Shown here: positions 474 to 52,762 of the stretch, in pieces
How positions within the stretch are numbered: position 1 is the stretch's first letter
How the letters are laid out: the number at the start of each line of letters is the position of its first letter
Assembly (NCBI GenBank): GCA_021292105.1
Contig: CM037870.1
Location: forward strand, 63,982,083-64,046,082
Source of the DNA: Anadara kagoshimensis
Lineage: Eukaryota; Mollusca; Bivalvia; Arcoida; Arcidae
Direction of reading: 5' to 3'
DNA length: 64,000 nucleotides
Translations under genes and position numbers: made by a program
Notes under the pieces: generated by a model
What the model was told of the DNA's origin: nothing
The model's input: the letters and a program-made list of their open reading frames with translations, nothing else
Database searches by the model: none

Positions 474-3400
474 CTTGATCGACTTCTATCACTTGGAGAA
501 TGACTTCTCTTCTTCCTACTGACATGATTCTTTCTGTAAATAGACAATCAGATTACATTATAACAAACATGGAAATGCACAATACACTGAAATATATGTT
601 TTTATACATTTGATGTAGTTGAGAGTGGAGTGAACCAATTGCCAGTCTTAGGATGGTGGAGAAAACTGGAGTACTTAGTGAAAATACAATCTTTGACAAG
701 GGAGCTGAAATAATCTGGCACTAGGATCTGCTAAAATGGGATTACAAAATTCAAGATTTGTTGATTTCTGGCTTCATTAAACAACACAAAAATTCTTCAT
801 TCTAATGCTATATATTATGCATCTCTACCTATAAATTTCTTTTGATTTATGGCCTATTTAAATGTTCCAAAATGTTGGCCAAATTAGAATTAAAAGCAAA
901 AAATTGTAAGCTCTTCATTTGTTTTCCTACTGTACTTACAATGAACCGTTATCTGAATGTCTGCCTTTTTCTGCCTCTATTCTCTTTATACTGGCCATCA
1001 ATGATGGATTTGGACTGACATTTTTTGGTGAATCTGAAATTTAAATGGTAATTGTTAATTATTATAAGAATATGTTAACACTATATACAAGTGTAATGGA
1101 GTTCCAGAAGTGTAATAAGCGCTCCAGTTAAGTTTATTTACTTGCACTGTAACATCACCAGCTACTAGTGAAACATCACCAGCTACTGGTGAAACTAAAA
1201 AATCTGCAATATGCCTACTAATCTACATAGAGCAGCAAGGGCTTTTTTCCTAATTATTTTCATATTACTACTGAGATAATAAGCATGAGTTTTCAAGACT
1301 TATTAGAAGGACCAATTTGCAGACATATACTGATCCCTGATAATATGATAACATGCTCACATGATTATGCTAATACATTCATTAGCTTTATAATCTTCTA
1401 TAGAATATTATTTCACAATCCACCTGCTTGTACAATTTTCTGATTAAGTTTTGTTGAATAAACCTCTTTTGATAACAAAGCACAAGATGTACATCAAGAC
1501 AAAATGCAGAAATGGCATAGCAAATCCATTTCGTATCGACAAATCACCAAACTTAATTTTAATATAAATCTCAAATAAAAATTGTGATTCAAAAATACAT
1601 GTAGGATGAACTTAAGACATGAAGATAAAATTGTGATCCAAATAAAGTATGAACTTAAGACATGAACGTATAAAATTGTGATCCAAATAAAGTATGAACT
1701 TAAGACATGAACAGATTACTGTTAGTGGATATCTCAATACTTTTAGTGATACAACTTACTTTGTCTAGAGGATGAATTTGGAGTACCATGTTCAGATGAA
1801 GCTAGACCTTTAGCCTTCATCTTGGCTTCTATTTGCAACTTCTTTGCTTCGTTAACCTTTGATTCTATTGCTTCATAATTTGGCTAAAAAAGAACAAAAT
1901 GAATAGACAATAAACAAACAAGTTCAAGGTGTATGTATACATCTTAAACATACACATAACTATCAATATCAGCAAAGTGTAAATTATGAGAATGTTGCAA
2001 GAATCACAGCAAATATAGATATGTAGTCAATCTAAATACTTCATACAAGCCATCAACATATTTAAACCTATTTAAGCCTATTTTGTCAAAGTAAAGCATG
2101 GATCTAACAAGGCAACGCAGCCCAAAAAAGCGTCTGTAACGCATGTTTATATAACTGGCTGCAAATATAACAGTAAAACCACACAAACAAATATCTTACC
2201 TTTGGTCTTGCATAAAGTTTGAGTATAGTTAAACAGATTTCCCTTATATCTTCCTCATCAACATTAAATATAGCGAACCATGCTGGATTGTTTGGAAGTG
2301 GAATCTAAAAATAAACAAAAAATGTATAGATTATGGTTGAATATCACCATATACAAACCATCAACACTACCAACTCTATCAATAATTTCAGACACCAGCA
2401 TAAGAAAGTTTTTTAGATTGGTGGTTTTCTCCCAAGTACTCCATGCCTCAATATTAGCAAAAGATTCTTGAATCAAGCAAAAAATTGATTACTCCAATTT
2501 CAAAAATTAAAATTGCAGACATCCCGCTCAACTATGTAAGTAACAATCAAATCTCTGTAAATATTGCCAGTTTTGATAGAACTCATTAATTACATTTTTC
2601 ACAAAACTTTAGTCTCATATTCTAAACAGGTGAATTTCTTTCCCCCCAATCTTCATAGAAGTATGTCAGAAATAATTACAAGATACAGTTTATATAAGAA
2701 CCAGAGAACACATCAATATTTATCATTAAAGTATTTACCTTTAACTGTCTGGCAGCTAGGTAGATACAAGCACAGGCTATGGTTTCCGGATGATATTTAA
2801 CAAACACATCTGTCCTAAAACTATCATTCATGTAGTTCCTGAAACAATAAATATACCTAGTAAATATATTGTTGATGTACATGCAAGTTGCTGTGTGAAG
2901 ATACATGTAGAGATATAATATTTTTGCGTGTTGAAAACTTGTACTTTTAAACAGCATATTGAAGGAAGTGGAATAAGTCCCAATACTAAAGGGTGACATA
3001 CATGTAAGTGTTTGAAACATGAAGAACAATTTGCTAGTATGAACACCCTAGAAAAAGCAAATGATTCTAATATTGTATAAAAAGCTGTGGAAACAGCAGA
3101 CCTCACTGATTAAAACACACTAAACAACCTGACATTGTACATATTGATCTTTTTAATTTGGGTTGGAAATTGGGATCCATTTCCAATGTGCATAACATAC
3201 ATTTTTTTTATGAACATGTTTGATTTTTCCCCAATTTCAAAACATCCATAAAATTTTTTAAACATTTAAACAGCCACTGTATTTTCCAATTAGATTTCCA
3301 AAAATGACATAATGTGCAGCCCTAAACCCAAATCCAAAATGGGGCACAGCAGCCATCTGCTAGATATAAACACTGAACCCACATGCAGCCCTTCTGTACT

Positions 3401-5637: not shown

Positions 5638-8600
5638 AATGCAATCCACTGTTCTTACTGATCAAGGTGGTATAGACTCATAATCTGCCATCAGATCATG
5701 AATGACCTATACAAGTACATATACAACAATAAGAAAGAAAAACATACAATTAAATGTAGTAAATATAAAATTAAGAGTGTTACCCACCTTGTGAGGATGT
5801 TTGACATGGACACAGAAGCCAAGCTCCTTTAATACTCTCCTCTCTGACTTGATCACTTGGTTCTTGGTGTTAATGTAATTCTGATCCAATACCAATGGAT
5901 GTATAACCCTGTTAAGTAAAGTAAATAAAAACATGGCATATCTCATGTTATCTGACAGTATCGGATCAACAATACCAGAAATACTGTTCTCTTTTTACTG
6001 CATAGCATCTTTCATACTATCTATCATATAAAGTGCAAACCAGTGGCCTTAAAAATAAAATCAACATAAAATAATGTTTCCAATATCTACTAACAACGGT
6101 TAGAAGTTTCATATCAAAACCATTTCAGCAAAAATGGATGAAGTGGACATCAAGTACATGTTCAATACAAAAGATGAAAGATTTCCATAAGTTTGTGTAC
6201 TCCTCAGATTCCGTCTTGTTTTCAAATAAACAACTCATTACACTCTTATTTAAATTCACCATAGCGGCACTGATCAACAATGATTGGTCACAAATTTGGT
6301 CATGCAAGCCATACAACACTGGTCACTTAAAAAGTGCTCTCAGCATGTTTAGTGGATTCATCTTCATCTGCCTTGCACTGGATTTCAGCAATGTTCATGT
6401 ATTAAATATTTCACAGTCCAAGTATTATAAGCACAATCTGCATCCAATAAAACTATATTCAGTGTGGCCAGTCTAAACCGCTGAAGGTAAATATATATTT
6501 CCATAGATTTTTTTTAACAAAAAAACAGTCATGATATCAGTCATACTCCTATCAATAATGTATTCTTGATAAAAGGTTTGATGCAAAACAACTATTTTAC
6601 GAAAATAATTTGTTACCATATTTAACGTGCTTATTCATCCCAATGGTATTCCATTTTTCAATAATACAAGACATATTATTTACAATTTGTGATTCTATGA
6701 TAGTTCAACAACGCAAAAAATACAAGCATAATAACTGGTATGAAGAAATTGTAATGCACATTGTCAGAATCTTTAAATTTAATCCAATAAAAATAGTCAT
6801 TCTAAACTCAAAACAGAAATGCATTTTTGAAATTCCTGAGGAACAACATTGGCACAAATGACTAGATGCAAATGACCAGAAGACGAGGCTTATATGCTGT
6901 GTCAAGAAATTTCAGGAAATCATATTATATTACAGTGCAAGCTGTTTATCCAAAGGGTTTTTAAATTTAGAGTGGTTTAGAAATAGTTTACATGTATATA
7001 TGTCTTTATTATATGAAGAAAATCAGTTGCTAAGTGAACTTTTCCTGAATCATGATCAGTATTGAACCTATTCTATGCATCAAAGATGCACAACACTTAG
7101 CAACATCATATCTAAGCCATTTGATCTTTGTGCTTTAGTACATCACATGTTACTTTGTTGAATAATCATTGGATAACTACATAAATACTATTTAATGTAG
7201 AAATCATCTGTCCTTGACAATGCATAGCAACAGGACTATACCTGAGGGACTATACATTATAAATTTTTGATATGTGTGAATGCACATTAATTAATGTATT
7301 TATTTATTTATTTATTAATAGGTTTATTTATTATTTATTAAAGTTGAAAATCAATGATGTTGAATAAAATTAAATTTTAATTAAAACTAAGACATGTGAT
7401 GTACTAAATATATTATGAACCTCTCCCTTGGAACAGTTCTTCTATAGTGTTGTCTTGCTCAGGTACTACCTCTCCAGACAACACTATAGGAGAACAGTTC
7501 TCTTGGGAGAAGTCCATAATAATAGATTAATAATTCCTTTGGATGCCAAAACTGTTTACCAGTACCAGCCACCTGTGTAGATTTCCACTTGTCAATGTTT
7601 TATGTTCTATACCATTTCCTATAATATAGGATCCTGTTAAAGTTATAGTATATTGCATAATTAACATACTGGCACACTAGGTCTTCTTCAACCAACTACA
7701 CAACACACAATTAACACGAAGTATATCAACAAATATGTAAATCTTATCAATTCTTGTTTTATTTCATCAGTTTCCTCAAACATTTTAACTAATGACACAT
7801 GTAAAAAACCAAATATAAATATCTAAAATCTCTTCTGTGTGCAAAGTTTTAATACAATGATAATTCTACTTATTGATACTTTACAAAATTGCTATACTTC
7901 TCTAGTATGTCACATAAGCTTAACATAAATATATAAATCGTTCATTCTATTTCAAGAAAAGATTAACAAAAAAAGTGAGAGTAAAGAGGCCACTGGTTGC
8001 AAGTATTATAAACTTACTATATTGTATCATACAAACCATTTTATCTCTTGACCAACACAGGGAATGATGTGATAGTGTGGTGTCACTTTGACAAACAACC
8101 ACAACATGTTGGGGTGCCATGTGTGGATACTTGAGGTCAAAGGTCATGTAGTCACCACCCCAATCACTTCTACATAGTTGTACTTCCAGGTCGTTTAGTG
8201 TTGTGCCTCATCAAGATAGATTCCAGATGCTGTGCAATGCAGCAAAAAGAAAACAGTATTAAAACTTGTTCACAAAATGCATAGAACTAAAACTAACAAA
8301 ATCTGCAATACAGAGTTTTAATCACTTGTTTGCATATTATAAATTTACATTTCAAAGGAAAAGCTGCTACTTTTACAGAGTTAACTTGCATATTATTGTA
8401 CACATTTGCAGGTCAGATTTTTGGGTGTTAAATTAATCAAAACAAAAATTACAAATTAGTTAAGTCAATTAAAAGTCATAAAACAAGATCAAATGCGTAT
8501 AATTCACCAAATGAAATGCATGATATTTTTGCCCCAACATGAATTGATTATAGATATATAACTGAACTTTACCAAGGTTTTATTTTCAGCCTTATAATTC

Positions 8601-11600
8601 AGCAGGATACATCATCTTCTATGATATGTAATGAATCAAACTGTCATCAAAGTTGTTCTGCTACGAATTTGTATGGTACAAATTCCAGTCATAACATAAA
8701 TTCCTTATAAAAGCTACAGAAAAGGAAACTCTGGATTCATCATAGACTCAAAAGATCTTGATGGATGAATACAACATAAATCTGCATAATACCAATGTAA
8801 TGAAAAACACCATAAGCAAAAAACAGTTTGGTTAGTTATATATGTGAATATAAATATTTTTAAGAGATACTTACTTTTGATATTTCAGTTGTTTTACATG
8901 ATGAAACACATTTATAACATCCCTCAGTCTTCTGGGACTTTCTTCAATTTTGGCAGCTAAATTTATGCAAGCCATTGCAACAACCTAAAACAAGTTCAAG
9001 GAATCAAATGTTATCAAGATATTCAATGGGAATCATGACAACTCGTACCAAACCCAGAAAACAAAGTTCCGAGACAACTTAGTAGTACCAAGAATGCAAT
9101 TTCAGAAAATTAACAATTTCTTTTAAGTCTAAGGATATAAATCACTATTTAATCTTTAATTTTATTCATTTACTTCAAAGTTATAGGGCATTACTAGAAC
9201 CCCTTGCCCATATTTATTTATGTATCAATCAAGAACATGCTTACTGCAATAAATGTTTGTCAACATTGAATTGCTGAAGGACAACTGTAAACTCTCTGTG
9301 CTTTAAAGCGAAATTAATACTATAAGTTTACAAAAAACTTAATTTTCTTTAATTGCTTTCTTGGATATAAGTTGTCCTAGGTACAAGTTGTCCAGCAACC
9401 ATTCAACATGCAATACATCTTTTGAAACTAGACATTGAAGTTAAACAAAGTTTAGACTCAGTTTGTTTTAAATATAATGGGTCAAAAAAGGAAAGGAAAA
9501 GAACAATTGTAAAAGCACCCCATGTAGTATAGGAATGTGACAGACCAGGCTCGATAGCTGACTGTGCAGCTCAGTCAGTAGTTCCCTGCTAGTATTGGGA
9601 AGGTCCCAGATTCAAGTTACAGTTTTGCAATTTCATATTCCTGGTACATATGAGGGAAACCAAAAACCTAGTATTTTCAATTCAAGGGAGGAATGTGGCA
9701 AACATCGGACAGTAAAACAATGTTTTACTATTGGCAAGGTTTAATCACTGCATTGTTTTCATTTCCTGTTAAGGGAAGATCACACAGTATTCTTAAGTCT
9801 TGGTCAAAATATTGACCATGTCAGTAATTGATGAACCCCCCCCCCCCCCCCTTATATAATTAGCAGCAATGATGGGTATGCTTTAGGCCACAATATGTCC
9901 CATCAGAAATTATACAAACCACAACCTTTGGATCAGAGTCTACTGTGCATAAAGGCTATTTTGAACATGCATATATTGCGATTACATTTTTATTTGTATC
10001 TTTTTGTTAACATTTTAATTATATTTCAACAAAGAAAAGAGAGACCCAAGTGGAAAAAAATATGTTTTCTTTTAAATCAGTCTATGCAAGTGTGTGCATA
10101 CCATAAATTTTGTCACTTTTTCAATTAGGGCTGTGACGGGTAGAGAATTCTGTACCCGGGTACCCGAAATCTTGTACCCGACCCGATACCGAGTACCCGA
10201 TGCTTTTCAACTTCCACACATTTCAATTAAGAATCTATTTCACAAACCGTGAATAAGTAACCAGAATAAACAAATATTATTAAATAAATGATTATTAATC
10301 TATATAGATGATTTTACCGTAAACAAATGCAGTAAATTGCAGATAAATCTGATAAATCGGCATCTTGTTTTTTTATTATAGACTAATATAGTAACCTATC
10401 GTGAATCCCGGCTCTCCATGATGAAACCTTAACTATGCATGCGCAATGCTTATACGAGTTACACTTCAAAGGTTTTGTCTTGCAAGCTAGGTTAAATAGA
10501 ATCAGTAACTGTCATTGTTTTGTTAATGTTATTAAATAAAGTAATTTCCAAATTTCCGATTTTCTTTTGGTCATGTTTAAAGTTGCTTAGAGTGGTTCCC
10601 CAATATCGCCATTCGGAACCATATATCGTATTATTGGGTTGAATGTAGTTCCTCAAGGTGTTCCGATACTTACCTCGTGTGTCACAAACTGACAGAAGTA
10701 TTAACAATGTTCACGATTACTGACATGTCGTGTCATTTTGAATGAAAGTCAAGAGTTTAATTGAACTTATATACATTTTATTTTAAATCTACAACAATGA
10801 TACATATTTTAACGGGTAACGGGTAAACAATTTGTTACCCGGGTACAGTCATTACCCTAACCGTGAACGGGTATCCGGGTACTCGTCACAGCCCTATTTT
10901 CAATAAAATCAAAATAGTTAAGTATAAATACTCCTATTATGGACCTCATTGGTGATATGTAGGTCGTCCAGGTGTGAATGGGTGCAAGACGTTTCGTCCC
11001 ATAGGACTTTTCGTCCAATGCCATTTCGTACCATATTCAGGACTTTTCGTCCCATACTTCTAAGATGTTTCGTACCATAGAAGTTTTCGTCCCATGACAT
11101 TTCGTAAACTTTTTAGGGACTATTTTAAGATGTACTATAACATTGAGTAACTTTTTCAGAACATTTCATGCCATATTCGGGACCGTGGAGTACTTTTCGT
11201 CCTGGCAATATAAATTCGTTATATACATTGAACATGTGCACCTCCAATTTGACTGCATTTATTTTTTTCAGATTTTACAGATAGTTGAACTGAGTAGTTT
11301 TCAACAATATTACAAATGAGGGTACCCATTTGTGACTTTGTGTAATGAACTTCTCTTACAGCTTTTAATCAAAGAGTCTGTCACTAAATTTGCATGATGT
11401 TTCTATTACATATTGAACACATGCAAATCCTATTTTTCTGCATTATTTTTTTTATAGATTTTATGGATACTTTTGAACATTGCCATTTTTCAATATTACA
11501 CTGAATGATTTGTATCTTACATTTCTATATAAGCGGGATGATCACGATAAGTAAAAGTGATATTCATACAATGGAAGACATCCAAGTTTGCATATATACT

Positions 11601-14600
11601 GATCATTTAGCCTTTGTAAAATTAAATTATTGGCTCTTTCTATATGTCATATAACAGTATAAGTCCCACGCTTCTTCGTGTTTGTAGAACTGTCTATACT
11701 GACCATTTTGCATATTGACCCACGACCACGCTGCAAAACACACGGAACAACAAAAGCCTATACTTTATGGCTTTAAAGTTTATTTAATGTCACACAATGA
11801 TAAAGCGAGAGAGAAAAAAAGTAATATGCTAGCATAACTTAAATGGTGGTTAGTTAAATCCATATAAAAAGCAAATTTAAGATGTATATACCTTAATCTT
11901 TATTTTTTAAAAAGACAAGATGGGGAAATTAAATATATCCGACCAAATTACCATATCAGACATATCAGAGACATATATATAACTAAATTTTATTCATAAC
12001 ACCAGAGACATAAATCCATATAAATAAATATAAAAAAATAAATAAAATCTCTTTAATAAGTCATTAAAATGTTACGAAATGTCATGGGACGAAAAGTCCT
12101 ATGGTACGAAATGTCTTATAATTATGGGACGAAGAGTCCTGGATATGCACAGGCATTTGTTTCTATGAATGAAAAAAAAATCGAGAAATACTATATAATA
12201 ACACAAGGTGGTCATCTCTTTTTCAGGAGAATTACCACCAGTCCGCTTCAAACTGATTATTTCCATTTTTGCACGATAAAAATTCAAACAAACCTGGTAC
12301 CGTTCGATTCAAAACACTTTTATCTTTACGGTAATACACATTTTTGTATCCCTCGATAACCCCTCGCTTGAATAATTGACATATTTCTCAGCTATTCCAA
12401 CGACTACGACAAATATCACACTTCCACTATATTCACTTCCGGTCCGCAGTTAATATTATTTTGAGTAAATAAAATGAGTTGTTTAAAAAATATAAACGTA
12501 TAACAGTTTTAACATTTATATTTTACACAAACAAAATAATACATCTTAATTTAAAATCTGTGTTTTATTATTTTGACTATATTTATGTTCTCAACATGTA
12601 CGCCATGACAAGTCAAGAGGGTTTCCAAATAAGAACGATAACTCCCGATGAAATCAAATTGACATTTGGTGGGAAATTTAAAACGGACAATTTTGATACT
12701 TTTCAAAATGAGTGAATGCAGAAATAATTTTGCAATTACTTTTTGGTAAGTATAATGAGAGAACTCTCAATTTGTAATACAGCCAATTATATTGACGTTT
12801 TGGGGAAATATATAAAGGAGATAGTACCAAATGAGGCTTTCTATGGTACTAGTAAAGGACGACTCAAGCGCTTAATTAAATTAAGAGTGTCATCAGGTAA
12901 ATTTCCTCTCGACACATCATTCACAGCCTTAATAAAGTCTGGCTGATTTTGACGCATGACATCAGTTAATACAAATTTATGAATAAAATAGGTTTTAAAA
13001 ATATCCGAGACAAAACAATATTCTCCTGGGTCATCCTTTAGGATGTCAGGAACTGGGGCTAACTGAAAAAAATCACCAACCCCCAGTACCTGAATTCCCC
13101 CAAATATTTTCTCACTTTTTCTTGTTTTCCTGCAAATATATTCTAATTGTTCGAATAAGCGTTTTGACAACATAGAAATTTCATCAATGATTAAGCAGTC
13201 TGTTGTTAAAATATTGTTCTTATATATTAAAAAATGTTCATTGTTAGAAATTTTGTCCAGTAAATTTTCGTTCGAATATCTACCATCGCCAATACCACAC
13301 CACGAATGAACAGTTTGTCCCCCTATATTAAGGGATGCTATCCCTGTAGTGGCTGTAAGCCTTACATTTATACACTTTTCTTTAAGTTTACGGGCAATTT
13401 CTTTACAAACAAAACTCTTTCCAGTGCCACTCTGGCCTAAAATTAACAAGGAATGGCCATTTACCGCCTTTTGAACAATATCGTCTTGCATTCTTGTCGT
13501 TTTACCTGTTTTACAATTTCTACTTTCGATTTGTGATTCTATTTATTCACCGACCAATCAAATATGGTCATCATATTCCCTGCGCAGCGGACCGGAAGTG
13601 AATATAGTGGAAGTGTGATATTTGTCGTAGTCGTTGGAATAGCTGAGAAATATGTCAATTATTCAAGCGAGGGGTTATCGAGGGATACAAAAATGTGTAT
13701 TACCGTAAAGATAAAAGTGTTTTGAATCGAACGGTACCAGGTTTGTTTGAATTTTTATCGTGCAAAAATGGAAATAATCAGTTTGAAGCGGACTGGTGGT
13801 AATTCTCCTGAAAAAGAGATGACCACCTTGTGTTATTATATAGTAATTTCTCGATTTTTTTTCATTCATAGAAACAAATGCCTGTGTGGATATGGTACGA
13901 AATGTCTCGAAAATGGTATGGGACGAAAAGTCCTATGGAACGAAACGTCTGTAATTCGTGTGAATTGTCTTGATTCAATCACACAGGTAAAAGGTACATT
14001 CATTTGTAATTTGGGGCCCAAATGGATAGCTGGAATACATATTTTCTGTCACAAATGTGATTTTTTTCTATATACAGACATTAACCAAAACATGCAGCAT
14101 TGACAAAAATATAATTTTAGTTAGGTCTCTGAATAGTAAATAAATATGCACTGTTAATTTGTCCAAGCAATTCTTTATTAAAATGTAATTTACAATATTC
14201 CATGTTCAAAATAGCCTTTATGCACAGTAAATTAAGGTCTACCAAATATCCTATATATGTTTCCATTCCTGGTAGCCAAAATCGCCATTGGCTACTATTT
14301 TCTGAGAAATTCTTTCAAAAAGTAACCGATTTTAACAAATTTGTGAATAAAATACTTTAAAAGGACTATATTTTTACAAATTTTGGAAATTTGGCTACTA
14401 ATAATTTGAAATTTGTGGAAACCTAGATATCGACAATTTCATAGACCATTTGGGCCAGTAAAAAGCTTCAAAACACTTTGCGAGAGGGTACTCTAACTTG
14501 ACAACCAAAGGAATCACATAAATGGTCAAACTTGACAATAAAACGTGCGATATTTTTCTCACCTCCATGTTGTGCTTGACAAATGATTTGGAATAATAGA

Positions 14601-14971
14601 ATCGCTGAAACAACACTTGACCTGTAGCCATTGCAACCTGCAAATAAAAGAAATGAAAACTACAACCTATAAAACAGATAAATATGATATATCCGGTTTT
14701 ATTCATTTATAAAATGCACATTTTCATGATTTTGAGATATTTCCAACATGGCGACAAAGGCTCTCACCTGAGGAACTTTCAGCAAGATTCCAGCCGTCTG
14801 AATTAGTTCACAACCTATTATCCTCAAGTCCATTTCTGTATCAAAATCGAGTCCGTCTTGCAAAGAAGGAGTTGGAGACAACTTATCATCGGGAATAAGG
14901 ACATTATCAAGTGTTAAAATAACTTTACTGAAATCTCTTGGTAGCGTAGGATGCTGTTTCGTATCCGCCAT
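474..14971 (-). CDS. CCNL: Cyclin L (CCNL1/CCNL2 family), 3'-partial, 10 exons
   Basis: Exons on the minus strand: 14971-14768, 14637-14563, 8984-8875, 5908-5788, 4943-4879, 2838-2739, 2304-2200, 1883-1760, 1033-940 and 533-474. All boundaries are GT-AG, the phases join without a break, and the 1058 nt give 352 codons. Residues 1-68 contain [19 protein letters not shown], the cyclin L entry into cyclin box 1. Residues 69-93 include [17 protein letters not shown], 94-129 include [19 protein letters not shown], 130-170 include [19 protein letters not shown], and 192-225 include [12 protein letters not shown]-type sequence ([16 protein letters not shown]), ending cyclin box 2. From about residue 335 the sequence becomes Ser/Arg rich ([16 protein letters not shown]). 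In this family the protein sits in nuclear speckles, partners CDK11/CDK12-type kinases and affects pre-mRNA splicing. Human members are about 520 aa, so roughly a third (the RS domain) lies beyond position 1. The start is the only Met upstream of the conserved core in exon 1. It is head-to-head with the Cab45 gene. I cannot tell CCNL1 from CCNL2; invertebrates usually have one gene. Confidence 0.95.
5570..5630. repeat. (AT)n microsatellite
   Basis: About 30 AT units in cyclin L intron 4, followed by a short ACACAC run. Confidence 0.95.
7422..7510. repeat. Long hairpin in cyclin L intron 3
   Basis: The arms 7422-7455 and 7476-7510 are inverted copies with few mismatches. The inner 14 bp CTATAGTGTTGTCT / AGACAACACTATAG are perfect, around a 20-nt loop (7456-7475). 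Size and shape resemble a pre-miRNA or a tiny TIR element. I recognise no known miRNA seed. Confidence 0.6.
9549..9730 (+). repeat. Possible tRNA-derived SINE remnant
   Basis: GCAGCTCAGTCAGTAG resembles a pol III A box, and a B-box-like AGATTCAAGTT follows about 35 bp on, then an unrelated tail. It lies in cyclin L intron 2. It is too degenerate for a tRNA gene. Confidence 0.35.
10126..10896. mobile_element. hAT-like MITE, 771 bp, with 8-bp TSD
   Basis: The ends are inverted: TAGGGCTGTGACG at 10126 and its complement CGTCACAGCCCTA at 10896, with one substitution further in. The element is flanked by an exact 8-bp duplication TTTTCAAT (10118-10125 and 10897-10904). Subterminal zones repeat the motif acccgggtac several times. 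There is no transposase ORF, so it is non-autonomous. The 8-bp duplication and termini fit the hAT superfamily. It sits in cyclin L intron 2. Confidence 0.85.
12148..13886. mobile_element. 1.74-kb element with 300-bp TIRs carrying a PIF1-like helicase
   Basis: Left TIR 12148-12447 and right TIR 13587-13886 are near-identical inverted copies, differing at a few positions such as an A-run. The ends read CACAGGCATTTG and CAAATGCCTGTG. Exact 8-bp target duplications TGGATATG lie at 12140-12147 and 13887-13894. It is inserted in the right part of the 10980-13957 element, so it is the younger of the two. The only clear cargo is the PIF1-like ORF; I see no transposase. Confidence 0.88.
12841..13491 (-). 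pseudogene. PIF1-like helicase fragment, 216 codons
   Basis: Near the N-terminus GQSGTGKS is a Walker A (motif I). TATTGIAS is motif Ia. LIIDEISM is Walker B (motif II). [11 protein letters not shown] is motif III, and FVLTDVMRQ matches the region after motif III in PIF1/RRM3-type helicases. The frame stops after SRPLLVP, before motifs V and VI. PIF1-family proteins are usually 500 aa or more, so the helicase is cut short. A weak match to the next block (FPQNV) is readable in another frame just beyond the stop, pointing to a frameshift. The family unwinds DNA 5' to 3'. It lies wholly between the two 300-bp TIRs, so it moved with the element. Whether the 216-aa product is made is unknown. Confidence 0.8.
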
Positions 14972-18300: not shown

Positions 18301-21300
18301 TGGCTTAACCTGTATATAGTGATAGGAATTGGTTGCATTTTCATAATAGATTAACCGGTTATAATCGGAAGATGATTTTGATCGATTTTCCAATTATAAT
18401 TGGTTAATAAATTGAAGCGGAAATTACAAAGTAAATTAGGTTAAATTCTAATTTTTAGTCTTGATAATATCTGCAAGATATTTGTATCTCAGCTAAGACT
18501 TAAAATATCCTCCATTTTTCCTAATCATTTACTCTTCCTTACATTTGTGTTAGTTTTCTTTTCCAAGTACACTTATTTCTTGTTTTCCTGATTGGGTAAT
18601 CAATTCCGTATTGCTCAAATGTTGTTCAGCTCTTCGTTCAACACTTCTTTGGCAGTTAAAAAAAAAAACTACTAAACTAAAACGTTGGTGACTGTTTTTG
18701 TCACATGATAGCATTTCATAAATTTTATTATTAACACAAATGCCGGTATAATTGTTTTTTTCTTTGGATATATTGATTGACATCACTTACTATAGGTAAA
18801 TTGGCAGGAATTTAGACCTTTGCTGTGAACAATGTGCATAGAGGATTTCAGCCTGACACACTCAACATAACATGTGGCATCTGTTTTCAATGTGATTGTC
18901 TGTTCTAAAGGGCTCTGTAAATTTTACTTTTAAATACCCATTTTCAAGTCTTAGTCAGATCTAGACATGGTTGGAACCTGGCCTCCTAAACATTAAGTGA
19001 AGTCTTAGTCAGATCTAGACATGGTTGGAACCTGGCCTCCCAAACATTAAGTGAAGTCTTAGTCAGATCTAGACATGGTTGGAACCTGGCCTCCCAAACA
19101 TTAAGTGAACCCTTTACCAACTGAAGTATCTTGCTAGTAAAACATGCAGTACCAATACTACGGTAGTTATAAACACATCTTTATTTGGTTATTTACATTA
19201 TTTGTTTTCTATGTATTTGTTTCTTAATTTTGAGCATTCACTCTGTAATTTTGACAGGTTATGTGGATTGGAAGGAATATTACAAACATTTCCTGTTAGC
19301 TAAAGGTCATCCAGTAGAGAAAGCAGAGAAACATGTGGTGGATTATGACCAAATTGATCTGACTGATATTGGTATGTAGAATTAAAAAGTTATCTATGGC
19401 TCTCTGACAATAGGAGCCAAACATTTATCCAACTTTAAAATTTAGAAGCCGGTTTTAAAGAGCTAGTAAGACTCAGAAACAAAACTATAAAAACTGGTAG
19501 TTCTAAATTTAGTTCTTATGGACTGTATTGATTTGTTTTCTTGATTAACTGTTTGTAACACTTAATGAATTTTTAAACAAAAATAGTTTTACTTTTTTTC
19601 ATATTTATGTTAAAGAATTTCAACGATGTTTGTCTGCCACAAAAAATGGTGAATATTTAAGCAAAAATATTAGAAGACAGAAATTATAAAAGATGAGCAA
19701 TTGGCTAGATTGGTGAATGGCAGTGCATCCTCTGGTTGTCTTGCCAGAATTTTACCATAGGTTTTCTGGTATTAAAAACATTTTGGATGGGATCCAGTAT
19801 TCTTTTTGACTAGATTTCCACAAATCGAAATTTATTAGTAGCAAAATTTGTGATTTTTAGCTCACCTGAGCCAAAGGCTCAGATGAGCTATTGCAATCTA
19901 TCTTCGTCCGTCGTGCGTCGTCCGTCGTGTGTAAACTTTACATTTTAATCTTCTCCTCCAAAACTACTAGGCCAAATTTGATGAAACTTTGCGATTATCA
20001 TGCCTGGGTAACAGCCTTTCAAAATTGTGTTCGGGGTTTGGCCACGCCCAACAATATGGCTGCCGTTACTATAAATAGCCAAAAGACAAAAAAATCTTCT
20101 TCTCTGAAACCAAAAGCTGCAGGCAAATTTTGATTAGATATTTGGATTCAGCATATCTGGGAACATTAAAATTGTGTTTTTCATGAAAATTGAACGAAAA
20201 ATAGGTTACGCGTTTTTTGCGTAAAATTATGTAATTTTGAAAATGAGACATTTATTGTTATAACTCAATAACGGCTGAAGATAATTGCATGGAGTTTTCA
20301 CTGTTGATCTTGTCTTGCTATTTTCTTCCAAAAGATGTCAAGGTCAAAGGTCAAGGTCATATCCCTGTTTTTGACCTTTGATAAAAAATGCTATTTTTTA
20401 AACATTTCAGGTGAAAATGGCATGGGATTTTCAGTTAATTGTAGGTATTGACATGATGATCATTTTGATACATAGATCAAGGTCATGAGTTCAAAGGTCA
20501 AGGTCAAGGATGAACAACTACTACCGTTATAGTTGATTATCTGCAAACTATTAACTTTTTGTATAGGCATACATATTAGAATATGGTAAGTAATGGCACA
20601 ATGGTCATTTTGATATATTAATAAAGGTCATGGGTTCAAAGGTCAAGGTCACAGATGCAAAACAATACCGAAATGGTTAATTATCTCGAAAACTATAAAC
20701 TTTTTGTATAGACATGTATATTACAATATTGAAGGAATTGATTTAACGATCATTTTGATATATAGATAAAGGTCGTGGGTTCAAAGGTCAAGGTCACATA
20801 TGCGAACGAATACCATATTGGTTAATTATCTCGAAAACTATTAACTTTTTGCATAGACATGTATATTACAATATTGAAGGAATTGATTTAACGATCATTT
20901 TGATATATAGATAAAGGTCGTGGGTTCAAAGGTCAAGGTCACATATGCGAACGAATACCATATGGTTAATTATCTCGAAAACTATTAACTTTTTGCATAG
21001 ACATGTATATTAGAATATTGTAGGAAATGATTTAACGATCATTGTGATATGTAGATTAAGGCCATGAGTTCAAAGGTCAAGGTCACAGATGCAAATCAAT
21101 ACCAAAATGGTTAATTATCTCGAAAACTATAAACTTTTTGTATAGACATATTATATTAGAATATTGTAGGTTTTGATTTAATGATCATTTTGATATTTAG
21201 ATTAATGTCATGCATTCAAAGGTCAAGGTCACAGATGGGAAAGAATACCACAATGGTTAATTATCTCGAAAACTATAAACTTTTTGTATAGATATGTATA

Positions 21301-24300
21301 TTAGAATATTGTAGGTTTTGATTTAACGATCATTTTCATATATAGATTAATGTCATGGGTTCAAAGGTCAAGGTCACAGATGTAAAAGAATACTGAAATG
21401 GTTAATTATCGCAAAAACTATAAGCTTTTTGTATAGACATGTATATTACAATATTGTAGGAATTGATTAAACGATCATTTTTATATATAGATTAAGGTCA
21501 TGGGTTCAAAGGTCAAGGTCACAGATGCAAAAGAATACCAAAATGGTTAATTATCTCGAAAACTATAAACTTTTTGTATAGACATGTATATTAGAATATT
21601 GTAGGTTTTGATTTAACGATCATTTTGATATATAGATTAATGTCATGGGTTCAAAGGTCAAGGTCACAGATGTGAAAGAATACTGAAATGGTTAATTATC
21701 TCGAAAACTATTAACTTTTTGTATAGGCATGTATGTTCGAATATTGTAGGTAATGGCCTAACAATCATTTTGATATATAGATGAAGGTCATAGTTTCATA
21801 CTTTTGTTTTTACTTTTTTAGCTGTTTATAAATAATGTGTTGTAGCTAGACTATATATTATATTATTAATATATTATACATATATTATATGTAGCAATCT
21901 TGGGACAAGGTATGATTAATTTGCAAAAATCCTTGCATTTAATTCTGCCTTACTGCTGAAAATTAGGAGTTTTCTTTAATAAATGTTATTGACCATTGAA
22001 CCTCTGCATGAGATATGTACTTAGCCTCAGGTGAGCGTTAAGGCCCATGGGCCTCTTGTTTTCTTTTTAACATGTTGAACTTTGCTAATTTTCTTCCATA
22101 TATATGTATTTTAATCTTTAAGTTGGACCGTATTAAAGCTATACCTTTCAAATTTTGCACACAGTAATATTTATATATGTATGTATCATGTGGACCTCCT
22201 AATTTGAACTTGGCTAATGAGTGTGTTGCATATGTTCTGTAATCTGTTAGTCAAACTGTATAAAAAGCCTTTCTGATATTGTTACATGATGTTTACATGT
22301 ATACCTATATGTATAACTAAGATGTTCACCTTTTTGGAGTAATTTTGCAGATTTTACGATGGATTGTCATTTCCATGTTAACAACATGTATGCAAAAGCT
22401 TCGTAGTGACATATGATGCCACACAGGTCCAGGCACATAATTGGTCTTGTTTATTTTAGATATATAGTAAACTCTTGTTATTATGCCCCTTCATAACTTT
22501 GCCACCTCGCTTATTGCCACAGAATTTTGAAGTTCCAAAATCCAATTATTTATATAAGCCTCCCTCAATTTATTGCTTAACATTTTTACAACATCAAAAT
22601 TTGACTGGATAAATGATGGCAATAATAATAATAATAATTGGTTTTACTATACTTAACAATTTTGTTTTCTATTACAGAGAGGGATCAACTTGTGAGGTAT
22701 AAGTTCCGTTGGTCAGAAGCAGATCAACCTCCTGCTGACAACAGACTGACAGAGATGGAGTTTTTTGCCTTCCGCCATCCAGAACAGAGCAACATTACAA
22801 TGCAAAACATGTTGAATACTTTATTTAATTCGTTAGGTATTTGTTATTTTACATTTCACATGTTTCAATTTTTTTTCAATCTTCAAGACTGTGTACCCCT
22901 GTAATCAATAACAGCCCTCTCGCTGGGCAATATTTTAGGATGATATTAGGTCCCATTTACAATTAGAAATAAAATATTATAGTTTTTTCGCAAACACTAG
23001 GCTGACTTTCACAATTAAAAAATCTGAAAAAAATAAATATAAATAAACAAAAATAAAAATAAATTCATGTCAAAAGTCAATCTGGAAACAAATAGTACTA
23101 AATTCATTAAGCATGTTCTCACTAATTTAAAGTTTTGTAACAATAATTGTATTTTACATTTTTTACAATTTTGTCCATTATACTGCTAATTTTCATAATA
23201 ATAAGTACCCTGACCGAATTCACAAAAATTTTGAGACATGCCTTAATGATTTGTATTAAATATGTTGTAATTTGTATATGTTGAATTATCATGTCCATAG
23301 AAACTTGGACCTAATGAATTTATTATTAAATATTCAAAAGAGCTTTTGTAATGCATCAAGTGAGCATAAGGCCCATGAGCCTGTTGTAACACCTGCATTG
23401 TGAATGTGAGCATTGACATCCCAGGTTTTGATTAGATTTATGACATACTAGTGAGTTAATGTTTCTATAACAACTTTTGACATAGCTATCCACTAATGTT
23501 TATTGGCTCATTGGTAGAGCATCTGCTTCAAGAATGTGAGGTTGTGGGTTCAAACCTGATGGGTCATACATATGATAACACTTACAATTTGAGATACTGC
23601 TTCCTTGTCTGGTGTTTAGTATTAAGAGAACAGATTATCAACTGATTTACCATGTGTCAGTATAGTGTGGCTTATCTATGGCACACTGATTAGTGAGTTA
23701 GCCCTTTAAATGTCATCCTTAGCTGTACAAGGTGGACCACAAACCACTCTCATACATTTCATTCATTTTTAGAGATAAGTAAACTTGCTTTTATCATGAA
23801 CAGCTGAAAGCTTATTGACACAGTGTTAAACAGTATAACAACAACAGCAACAAGATTTGTCTAAGATGTAAATATATGTTCATTTGCATATCTCATTCAT
23901 ACTTGAAAACTTGTTGTGGATAGCTGAAGGATTACTGAAACAACATTACAACAATGACATCAATAAGATTTATTTAAGATGTAGCTTACTTCATTGTTTT
24001 TCAGATACAAATGAAGATAAACTTTTAACAGAAAAAGAATTTGTTGCTCTACCCCCTGGAGATGTAGAAGATGAAGAACAAAAGAAAATGGATCAGGATT
24101 GGCAAGAAGATAGAAAGAAAGAATTTAGAGAAGTGATAGATAGAGATCATGACGGAGTGGCGACAATTAAAGAACTTACGGTACTGGCACAAACATTTAG
24201 TTTTTATAACACATGAACAAAAATGTAATTTCTGGTTCTAGAATTCTAAGAAATGAACAAAATTATACATTCTGGTTATTGAAAGAAATCAAATTTATAA

Positions 24301-35337: not shown

Positions 35338-37290
35338 GACTTCTCCTCTGAAAGTACTTGGCAGATTTCAATGAGACTTGGTCAGAAGCATGTCTGGGTC
35401 GGTGCAATTCAGATTTGTTCGTGGCGTTGCCATGGCTACCATAACTAGGTCAAGGTGACCTAGGGGTGCAAAAATCTTAAAAAATCTTCTTCTCCGAAAG
35501 TATTGTTTGGAGAAAAAATCTGATGAGATATTTGGCTTCTCTAGGGTCTTAAGCCTATAGTTTGTTCATTTTGTGAAATTCGGTCGAAAAATGGGTTACG
35601 CGTTTTTGCGTTTAATTTTGAAAAAATCGTAAAATAGCTTCAAATTGTTATAACTTGACTACTTGACCAGATAATGACATGGGGTTTTCAGTTTTGACAT
35701 CTTCTTGTTAGTATCTTCAAAATGAGGTCAAGGTCAATTGTGAAGGTCGTGACCTAATTTTTTTTACCTCTGATTATAATTATTATCTCGAAAACTATAA
35801 ACTTTTTGTATAGTCATGTATATTAGAATGTTGTAGGTATTGATACAACGATCATTTTGATGTATAGAAAAAGGTCATGGGTTCAAAGGTCAAGGTCACA
35901 GATGCGAAACAATACCAAAATGGTTAATTATCTCGAAAACTATAAACTTTTTGTATAGGCATGTATATTAGAATGTTGTAGGTATTGATACAACGATCAT
36001 TTTGATGTATAGAAAAAGGTCATGGGTTCAAAGGTCAAGGTCACAGATGCGAAACAACACCGAAATGGTTAATTATCTCGAAAACTATAAACTTTTTGTA
36101 TAGGCATGTATGTTAGAATGTTGTAGGTATTGATACGACGATCATTTTGATGTATAGAAAAAGGTCATGGGTTCAAAGGTCAAGGTCACAGATGCGAATC
36201 AATACTGAAATGGTTAATTATCTCGAAAACTATAAACTTTTTGTATAGGCATTTATATTGGAATGTTGTAGATATTGATACAACGATTATTTTGATGTAT
36301 AGAAAAAGGTCATGGGTTCAAAGGTCAAGGTCACAGATGCGAAACAATACCGAAATGGTTAATTATCTCGAAAACTATAAACTTTTTGTATAGGCATTTA
36401 TATTAGAATGTTGTAGGTATTGATACAACAATCGTTTTGATGTATAGTAAACGGTCATGGGTTCAAAGGTCAAGGTCACAGATGCGAATCAATACTGAAA
36501 TGGTTAATTATCTCGAAAACTATAAACTTTTTGTATAGGCATGTATATTATAATGTTGTAGGTATTGATACAGCGATCATTTTGATGTATAGAAAAAGGT
36601 CATAGGTTCAAAGGTCAAGGTCACAGATGCGAAACAACACCGAAATGGTTAATTATCTCGAAAACTATAAACTTTTTGTATAGGCATGTATATTAGAATG
36701 TTGTAGGTATTGATGCAACGATCATTTTGATGTATAGAAAAAGGTCATGGTTCAAAGGTCAAGGTCACAGATGCAAAACAATATTGAAATGGTTAATTAT
36801 CTTGAAAACTATAAACTTTTTGTATAGACAGTTGTAGGTATTGATACAACGATCATTTTGATGTATAGAAAAGGTCATGGGTTCAAAGGTCAAGGTCACA
36901 GATGCGAAAACAATACCGAAATGGTTAATTATCTCGAAAACTATAAACTTTTTGTATAGGCATGTATATTAGAATGTTGTAGGTATTGATACAATGATCA
37001 TTTTGATGTAAAGAAAAACGTCATTGGGGTTTAGTATTTACGTTTACTTTAAATCTATCAGCTAGCCATTAGTTATCAGGTGAGCGTATAAGGCCCATGG
37101 GCCTCTTGTTAAATAATCTAAGTAAAATTCAAACTGCAGGTCTCTTTGGTAGATTTTATAAAAGTGAAGCTTAGATATAGCATTAATGGAATTTGATACC
37201 ACTGCTGTATATTGGTCATGTAACCGTTGTCTTAACAAATTATAGTCAATAGAAATATAAAAATAATGATATTCTGATTAATTTTCAATT
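34756..37290 (-). pseudogene. LINE reverse-transcriptase C-terminus, 5'-truncated and split
   Basis: 34903-35233 (minus) encodes the domain downstream of the RT: SKLRCGSLKLCVETGRYSN, then CQCC...YHFVLVC, a C-x2-C-...-H-x4-C zinc-knuckle pattern seen in many non-LTR elements. The 3' end at 34756-34800 has AATAAAG and an (AAT)n tail. 37111-37290 holds the preceding segment (INAISKLHFYKIYQRDLQFE), so the two halves are one copy split by the insertion at 35234-37110. An in-frame stop lies upstream of the 37.2-kb part, so the copy is dead. Confidence 0.75.
35234..37110 (+). mobile_element. 1.9-kb tandem-repeat element (pearl/HINE-like), copy 2
   Basis: The head hairpin is near perfect: AGCTCACCTGAGCC-aaa-GGCTCAAGTGAGCT. 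About eight direct repeats of roughly 145 bp follow (35800-37000), each with GGTTCAAAGGTCAAGGTCAC. The tail is CAGGTGAGC, GGCCCATGGGCC, TCTTGTT. It is inserted in a LINE; the flanks join exactly, which fixes the ends. Confidence 0.85.
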
Positions 37291-51339: not shown

Positions 51340-52762
51340 CGTTTCATTTTTGCAGCACTACACGGATGTTTCGTTTCATTTTTACAGCACTACACGGATG
51401 TTTCGTTTCATTTTTACAGCACTACACGGATGTTTCGTTTCATTTTTGCAGCACTACACGGATGTTTCGTTTCATTTTTACAGCACTACACGGATGTTTC
51501 GTTTCATTTTTACAGCACTACACGGATGTTTCGTTTCATTTTTGCAGCACTACACGGATGTTTCGTTTTTTTTGCAGCACTACACGGATGTTTCGTTTCA
51601 TTTTTGCAGCACTACACGGATGTTTCGTTTCATTTTTACAGCACTACACGGATGTTTCGTTTCATTTTTGCAGCACTACACGGATGTTTCGTTTCATTTT
51701 TGCAGCACTACACGGATGTTTCGTTTCATTTTTGCAGCACTACACGGATGTTTCGTTTCATTTTTACAGCACTACACGGATGTTTCGTTTCATTTTTACA
51801 GCACTACACGGATGTTTCGTTTCATTTTTGCAGCACTACACGGATGTTTCGTTTCATTTTTGCAGCACTACACGGATGTTTCGTTTCATTTTTGCAGCAC
51901 TACACGGATGTTTCGTTTCATTTTACAGCACTACACGGATGTTTCGTTTCATTTTACAGCACTACACGGATGTTTCGTTTCATTTTTGCAGCACTACACG
52001 GATGTTTCGTTTCATTTTTGCAGCACTACACGGATGTTTCGTTTCATTTTTACAGCATTACACGGATGTTTCGTTTCATTTTTACAGCATACACGGATGT
52101 TTCGTTTCATTTTTACAGCACTACACGGATGTTTCGTTTCATTTTTGCAGCACTACACGGATGTTTCGTTTCATTTTTACAGCACTACACGGATGTTTCG
52201 TTTCATTTTTACAGCACTACACGGATGTTTCGTTTCATTTTTGCAGCACTACACGGATGTTTCGTTTCATTTTTACAGCACTACACGGATGTTTCGTTTC
52301 ATTTTTGCAGCACTACACGGATGTTTCGTTTCATTTTTGCAGCACTACACGGATGTTTCGTTTCATTTTTGCAGCACTACACGGATGTTTCGTTTCATTT
52401 TTGCAGCACTACACGGATGTTTCGTTTCATTTTTGCAGCACTACACGGATGTTTCGTTTCATTTTTGCAGCACTACACGGATGTTTCGTTTCATTTTGCA
52501 GCACTACACGGATGTTTCGTTTCATTTTTACAGCACTACACGGATGTTTCGTTTCATTTTTACAGCACTACACGGATGTTTCGTTTCATTTTTGCAGCAC
52601 TACACGGATGTTTCGTTTCATTTTTACAGCACTACACGGATGTTTCGTTTCATTTTTACAGCACTACACGGATGTTTCGTTTCATTTTTACAGCACTACA
52701 CGGATGTTTCGTTTCATTTTTGCAGCACTACACGGATGTTTCGGAGCAGCACTACACGGATG
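51340..52762 (+). repeat. 32-bp minisatellite, about 44 copies
   Basis: The unit is TTCGTTTCATTTTTACAG or ...TGCAG followed by cactacacggatgt. Copies are very alike; the main variant is A or G before the CAG-forming position, and a few units lack one T, one C or 'TTCA'. The plus strand has no stop in any frame, which yields three overlapping ORFs of 469-533 codons; as 32 is not a multiple of 3, each frame reads all three peptides in turn. I treat these as by-products. Confidence 0.95.

Follow-up and report, generated by a model that had tools for sequence, protein, structure and literature searches.

DNA transposons of the P superfamily are among the closest described counterparts of the element examined here, which lies at positions 12148–13886 of a 64,000-nucleotide stretch of the Anadara kagoshimensis genome (GCA_021292105.1, contig CM037870.1, positions 63,982,083 to 64,046,082; this whole stretch is termed the window). 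Drosophila P and THAP9-type elements are described as having 8-bp target-site duplications (TSDs), a P-type DDE transposase with an RNase H fold and a GTP-binding insertion domain, and internally deleted copies (PMC7776569, PMC8230255), all of which are shared by the family containing the window element. GTP dependence and a 17-nt staggered cut are biochemical features of the superfamily. Drosophila P is 2.9 kb long with 31-bp terminal inverted repeats (TIRs), whereas the full-length elements here measure 8.9 kb, have 301-bp TIRs, and carry a second, convergent gene for a PIF1-PHD protein, with no THAP domain found. Galileo, another member of the superfamily, combines a P-type transposase with long TIRs of 0.5–1.2 kb, as here; unlike for the present element, no helicase gene is mentioned in the available part of its description (PMC3688188). 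Helicase-bearing DDE transposons of eukaryotes are represented, in the accounts available, by KolobokH, which pairs a Kolobok transposase with RecQ rather than a P-type enzyme with PIF1 (PMC9587614), and by AcademH, which has an Academ transposase and TSDs of 9–10 bp rather than 8 bp (PMC10045372). A PIF1-family helicase, as found here, is described for Helitrons and Helentrons (PMC4067079). Helitrons, however, use an HUH rolling-circle replicase, and their helicases in this genome belong to a different clade. They are also not known to have terminal inverted repeats or a target duplication, whereas the family described here has 301-bp TIRs and 8-bp duplications.

With a probability of about 0.88, the window copy belongs, as an internally deleted and non-autonomous element, to a family of P-superfamily DNA transposons (about 8.9 kb, 301-bp TIRs, 8-bp TSDs) that has recently been active, and is of cut-and-paste origin; this figure covers identity and origin and excludes the role of the helicase. 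The initial annotation, made from the sequence alone, had described a recently inserted element with 300-bp inverted ends and an exact 8-bp target duplication, and each of these points held. The left TIR (12148–12447, plus strand, outer end CACAGGCATTTG) and the right TIR (13587–13886, minus strand) are 300 nt each, one base below the family length of 301 bp. They are 98% complementary in an ungapped comparison, and the gapped alignment contains no substitutions and two 1-base indels. The duplication TGGATATG flanks them at 12140–12147 and 13887–13894 (no strand), the two copies matching exactly. The left internal stretch (12448–12854, plus strand) follows the 8.9-kb element colinearly as far as element position 711, upstream of the transposase open reading frame (ORF), and an upstream transposase exon may sit there. 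It ends at a deletion junction with 3-bp microhomology (12852–12854, no strand), recognized by comparison with a full-length element. On the other side lies a helicase remnant, a minus-strand ORF of 216 amino acids (12841–13491) with a Pfam PIF1 match (E 2e-33). From its ATG, 213 residues are identical to residues 18–230 of the family's 1049-aa PIF1-PHD ORF; past the junction, three more residues precede a stop. As annotated initially, the remnant retains motifs I, Ia, II, and III; motifs V and VI, the 2B domain, the middle region, and the PHD finger are missing. No transposase is present between the arms. The window copy corresponds to the full-length element minus positions 712 to about 7872 (about 7.16 kb, with the transposase ORF and the greater part of the ORF for the helicase), so the absence of a transposase is due to its own internal deletion. 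The lack of a transposase noted in the initial annotation does not extend to the family, as full-length relatives encode a transposase of the P superfamily.

The genome searched was the one holding the window (1.115 Gb, 36 contigs), and since only the best candidates were scored, the resulting counts are lower bounds. Searching with the TIR, as proposed in the initial annotation, gave matches to the 300-bp arm at 40 places that were scored among 136 candidates. Pairs of arms bounded elements of 1.7 to 8.9 kb, designated family A, and the 8.9-kb copies contained a complete helicase and a transposase. Because the arm recurs at these 40 places and 17 of the 19 whole family-A elements examined have an exact 8-bp TSD, the element is beyond chance; one further copy, L042, whose right end lay beyond the fetched stretch, was left out of the 19. 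Five 8.9-kb copies were compared. Four of them had no substitutions across about 8,900 columns, with 2–7 gap columns per pair, while the fifth (L035) differed by eight substitutions and one inserted base, all inside about 20 bp of the helicase ORF, which looks like a single patch event. Such near-identity of the full-length copies indicates that the family has been active very recently.

The 13 short copies have different breakpoint pairs. Their 14 junctions, two of which contain 3-bp insertions and were scored as zero, showed a mean microhomology of 2.3 bp, versus 0.78 for random breakpoints drawn from element positions 310–2000 and 7000–8590 (3 of the 14 observed junctions have one end outside these ranges); the observed mean was reached in about 1 of 20,000 random draws. 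We interpret the microhomology as the mark of end joining that followed unfinished repair, as is known from gaps left by P elements. Two loci among the deleted copies had additional rearrangements. At L041 (C5:48829286-48862624), a deleted family-A element of about 1.89 kb occurs six times at a regular 6.29-kb step, with an identical target duplication in the two units examined, as a tandem segmental duplication carrying the element; one unit, L041b, a tandem duplicate of L041a, was left out of the 13 short copies. A deleted copy at L048 contains an unrelated insertion of 1463 bp (approximately L048:5634-7096), perhaps a nested element, which was not treated as a deletion junction.

The full-length copy L031 contains a plus-strand ORF of 790 aa, convergent with the 1049-aa minus-strand ORF. 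Uninterrupted ORFs were found in the genome at no fewer than 9 places for the helicase (residues 1–1049), at least 15 for the transposase (residues 1–790), and at least 7 for both. The full-length copies encode a P-type DDE transposase with an RNase H fold and a GTP-binding insertion domain, judging from the following features. The signature D, D, [C/D](2)H, E is present in L031 as D379, D480, D520-P-C-H523, and E724, and its four acidic residues and histidine are invariant across three rows of alignment A2; the choice of the residue acting as the first catalytic D is tentative. The distance D480–D520 is 40 residues in both L031 and THAP9, and D480–E724 is 244 versus 239. Foldseek and VIA gave 6p5a/6pe2 as the best structural match. 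In the divergent family B and at the locus L051 (see below), the Pfam family RNaseH_N scored above its cut-off, as did GBD in family B.

The 1049-aa ORF of L031 has Pfam matches above cut-offs to PIF1 (4e-32), to the Pif1 2B domain (2e-8), and, at its C terminus, to a PHD finger (5e-7); motifs I, Ia, II, III, V, and VI are all present. For its middle region (residues 440–849), no Pfam match reached an E below 0.1. Cellular PIF1 proteins are its best-scoring solved structures by both sequence and fold; those of human, yeast, and Candida are without the long helical middle region and the PHD finger of the element proteins. The best PDB sequence matches of the finger are the Alfin-like PHD fingers 5y20 and 5yc3, whose titles describe binding to H3K4me3 and H3K4me2. 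It scores above the cut-off in lineages A and C (3.6e-9 in C) and weakly in the family-B copy L056 (0.0073, under the cut-off). These matches would fit a protein that acts as a targeting or chromatin factor, its finger reading methylated H3 tails for insertion into open chromatin or evasion of silencing and its helicase providing access; we consider such a role rather unlikely, as it draws on likeness of sequence and fold only.

The initial annotation proposed a tree of the helicase against Helitron, viral, and host PIF1. Four element helicases formed one clade with support of 100/98 in a 13-row tree and 100/100 in a 34-row tree, the L058 row being a 148-aa piece. A separate clade (100/99) comprised three of the genome's Helitron helicases, for each of which Helitron_like_N had been detected in an ORF of identical length. 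Grouping with Helitrons was thus not observed, and grouping with host PIF1 was only loose, as the element helicases make up a separate deep clade, which meets viral PIF1 and the cellular PIF1 of human, yeast, and Candida at an unresolved fork; a viral origin would be compatible with this position. The element helicases of lineages A, B, and D are 30–36% identical to the human, yeast, and Candida proteins across the helicase domain, versus 74% identity to human PIF1 for the host gene, seen as an exon at C4:4753508-4753669. Separate clades and this identity gap indicate that the element protein is not of Helitron type and was not copied recently from host PIF1. A Helitron origin was rejected on the well-supported separate clades and the absence of a Helitron_like_N partner: this domain gave no Pfam match in the two L031 proteins, and none of its 104 genome matches lay beside the 12 paired PIF1 places described below, as compared by eye. 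A recent host copy was rejected on the identity values. An alignment of the helicases detected at least 87 viral PIF1 relatives in IMG/VR, of which 80 were kept; the viral rows of the tree were 21 of 23 chosen from these 80 loci (two had stops). The fetched DNA of the 80 loci contained neither a P transposase nor the element's C-terminal region at E 0.01, and IMG/VR scans with a single helicase, a single transposase, or a transposase alignment found no relative.

A further 19 transposase places, which lie outside family A and were grouped by eye out of 63 matches, were compared with 112 PIF1 places. At 12 of the 19, PIF1 was located within 10 kb, in all 12 cases convergent as in family A, with 0.04 expected; at a thirteenth, L054, it was 13.4 kb away, and the coding sequence beside the transposase there looks like a retrotransposon. 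Family B (C4:21368556-21378227) has arms of 518 bp that are 99% identical and end in CACAGGC like those of family A; its helicase ORF is open over 1047 aa, and its transposase is split in two pieces. At the sequence level, transposase and PIF1 helicase are thus both retained in divergent lineages. These data bear on a one-off capture, raised in the initial annotation, in which a non-autonomous TIR element happened to take up part of a helicase from the host or from a Helitron. The truncated helicase and missing transposase of the window copy would agree with it. The uninterrupted family ORFs at 9 or more places, the retention of helicase and transposase in divergent lineages with 12 of 12 pairs within 10 kb convergent, and the single clade of element helicases outside Helitrons make it extremely improbable. 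Chance capture was rejected on the first two of these grounds. The initial annotation had offered two possibilities, a non-autonomous element with a captured helicase or a relic of an undescribed helicase-using family; the helicase, present whole or in part at many family places and in divergent lineages, belongs to the family.

Several observations weigh against the assignment to the P superfamily or against a lasting partnership with the helicase. Two of the 19 family-A elements have no 8-bp duplication, and none flanks the one family-B element examined. The family-A transposase falls just under the Pfam cut-offs for RNaseH_N and GBD, PDB sequence searches with it returned unrelated chains only or no match, and both structure models are of low confidence (mean predicted local distance difference test scores of 50.5 and 51.8). 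The D379–D480 spacing is 101 residues; the corresponding values are 70 for THAP9 and 73 for the fly enzyme. A THAP-like zinc signature was absent from the upstream stretches, two upstream ORFs matched no Pfam family, and the start of the transposase ORF looks like a splice acceptor, so the ORF may lack an upstream exon. The paired places are partly non-independent, L049, L055, and L056 being >99% identical and L050 and L058 about 92–96%. At six of the 19 divergent places with a transposase, PIF1 is absent from the surrounding 15 kb. The same is true of L051 (C16:10118500-10127000), which has an open 803-aa P-type transposase 48–50% identical to that of family A and an adjoining 1.2-kb palindrome, and which may represent either a lineage free of the helicase or a gene that has been domesticated. 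Because of L051 and these six places, the helicase may be dispensable. It could even be a passenger without a role, kept by its position inside the element, with which the open transposase at L051 agrees, as does the broken or shortened helicase ORF at 8 of 15 places with an uninterrupted transposase ORF. Against this, two families only about one third identical have each retained a helicase ORF close to 1,050 aa long in which motifs I to VI are present; a neutral passenger would probably have decayed over the divergence of families A and B, which makes this explanation improbable.

As to how the P-superfamily reading would work, the transposase from intact copies could act in trans on the shared ends, excising and inserting the short copies, as suggested by P-element biology; the transposase type, the TSDs, and the deleted copies argue for such P-type cut-and-paste transposition in trans. 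For cut-and-paste elements, an increase in copy number depends mostly on templated repair of the excision gap by the host. Copying back an 8.9-kb element would need long synthesis, and we tentatively propose, as a possibility falling somewhat short of even odds, that the element PIF1 promotes D-loop (bubble-migration) synthesis during repair of the 8.9-kb gap from the sister or homologue. Gap copying would make cut-and-paste transposition effectively copy-increasing. The PHD finger may tether the helicase protein to histone tails. Aborted synthesis followed by joining of ends at microhomologies would yield elements like the window copy. The broader proposal, that a long-lived P-superfamily lineage brings its own PIF1-PHD helicase for D-loop synthesis at the donor gap and that this self-assisted, copy-increasing mode lets elements three times the length of Drosophila P persist, is more speculative still.

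The helicase could alternatively work in the transposition complex rather than in donor-gap repair, melting or remodeling the long ends or disassembling the strand-transfer complex. Parallels are provided by KolobokH and AcademH, DDE transposons outside the P superfamily in which a helicase has been added, and P ends are described as distorted in the strand-transfer complex (PMC7776569). On the other hand, the same source describes in vitro reconstitution of fly P transposition with GTP as the named cofactor, and Galileo has long TIRs with no helicase gene named in what is available of its description (PMC3688188). The long TIRs of families A and B would suit an action on the ends. No helicase was reportedly added in the fly in vitro system. 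Overall, we regard a role in the complex as unlikely, if worth considering beside donor-gap synthesis.

Helicase-bearing DDE transposons (Kolobok with RecQ, Academ) and long-TIR members of the P superfamily (Galileo) are already known from the accounts cited above. Open-access literature searches, conducted without Repbase, so that a record elsewhere is possible, found no P element with PIF1 among the records listed. If the donor-gap proposal is true, an element bringing a gap-synthesis helicase would directly exemplify the takeover of host gap repair by a DNA transposon. The near-identical full-length and deleted copies, together with divergent families with and without the helicase, offer a testable system. 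For annotation, animal PIF1-like genes or fragments can be of P-element rather than Helitron nature.

The insertion site was examined by joining the flanks of the window copy without the element and one TSD copy. The joined sequence aligned across the join (query 2–171 of 201) with copies of another dispersed repeat, 40 of them scored, with 87–91% identity, the matching genomic stretches being mostly about 10 bases longer than the aligned part of the query; empty sites therefore exist. The target is itself repetitive and carries both inverted and direct copies of GGGACGAAAAGTCC / GTACGAAATGTC motifs at window positions 11000–11124, 12055–12147, and 13895–13955. Exon-like minus-strand ORFs of a cyclin-L-like gene were found on both sides, at 2679–3029 and 14401–14971, and the transposon is probably located in an intron of this gene. 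The ORF at 14401–14706 matches cyclin-L2 in the PDB (4e-9), that at 2679–3029 has a weak match to the cyclin C-terminal domain, under the cut-off, and the neighboring ORF at 14702–14971 has no Pfam match. Elsewhere in the window, two tandem arrays about 14 kb apart (20438–21798 and 35782–37024) apparently consist of one and the same 145-bp unit, and a 32-bp unit is repeated 44 times with 97% matches at 51340–52743, where three frames are open across 469–533 codons.
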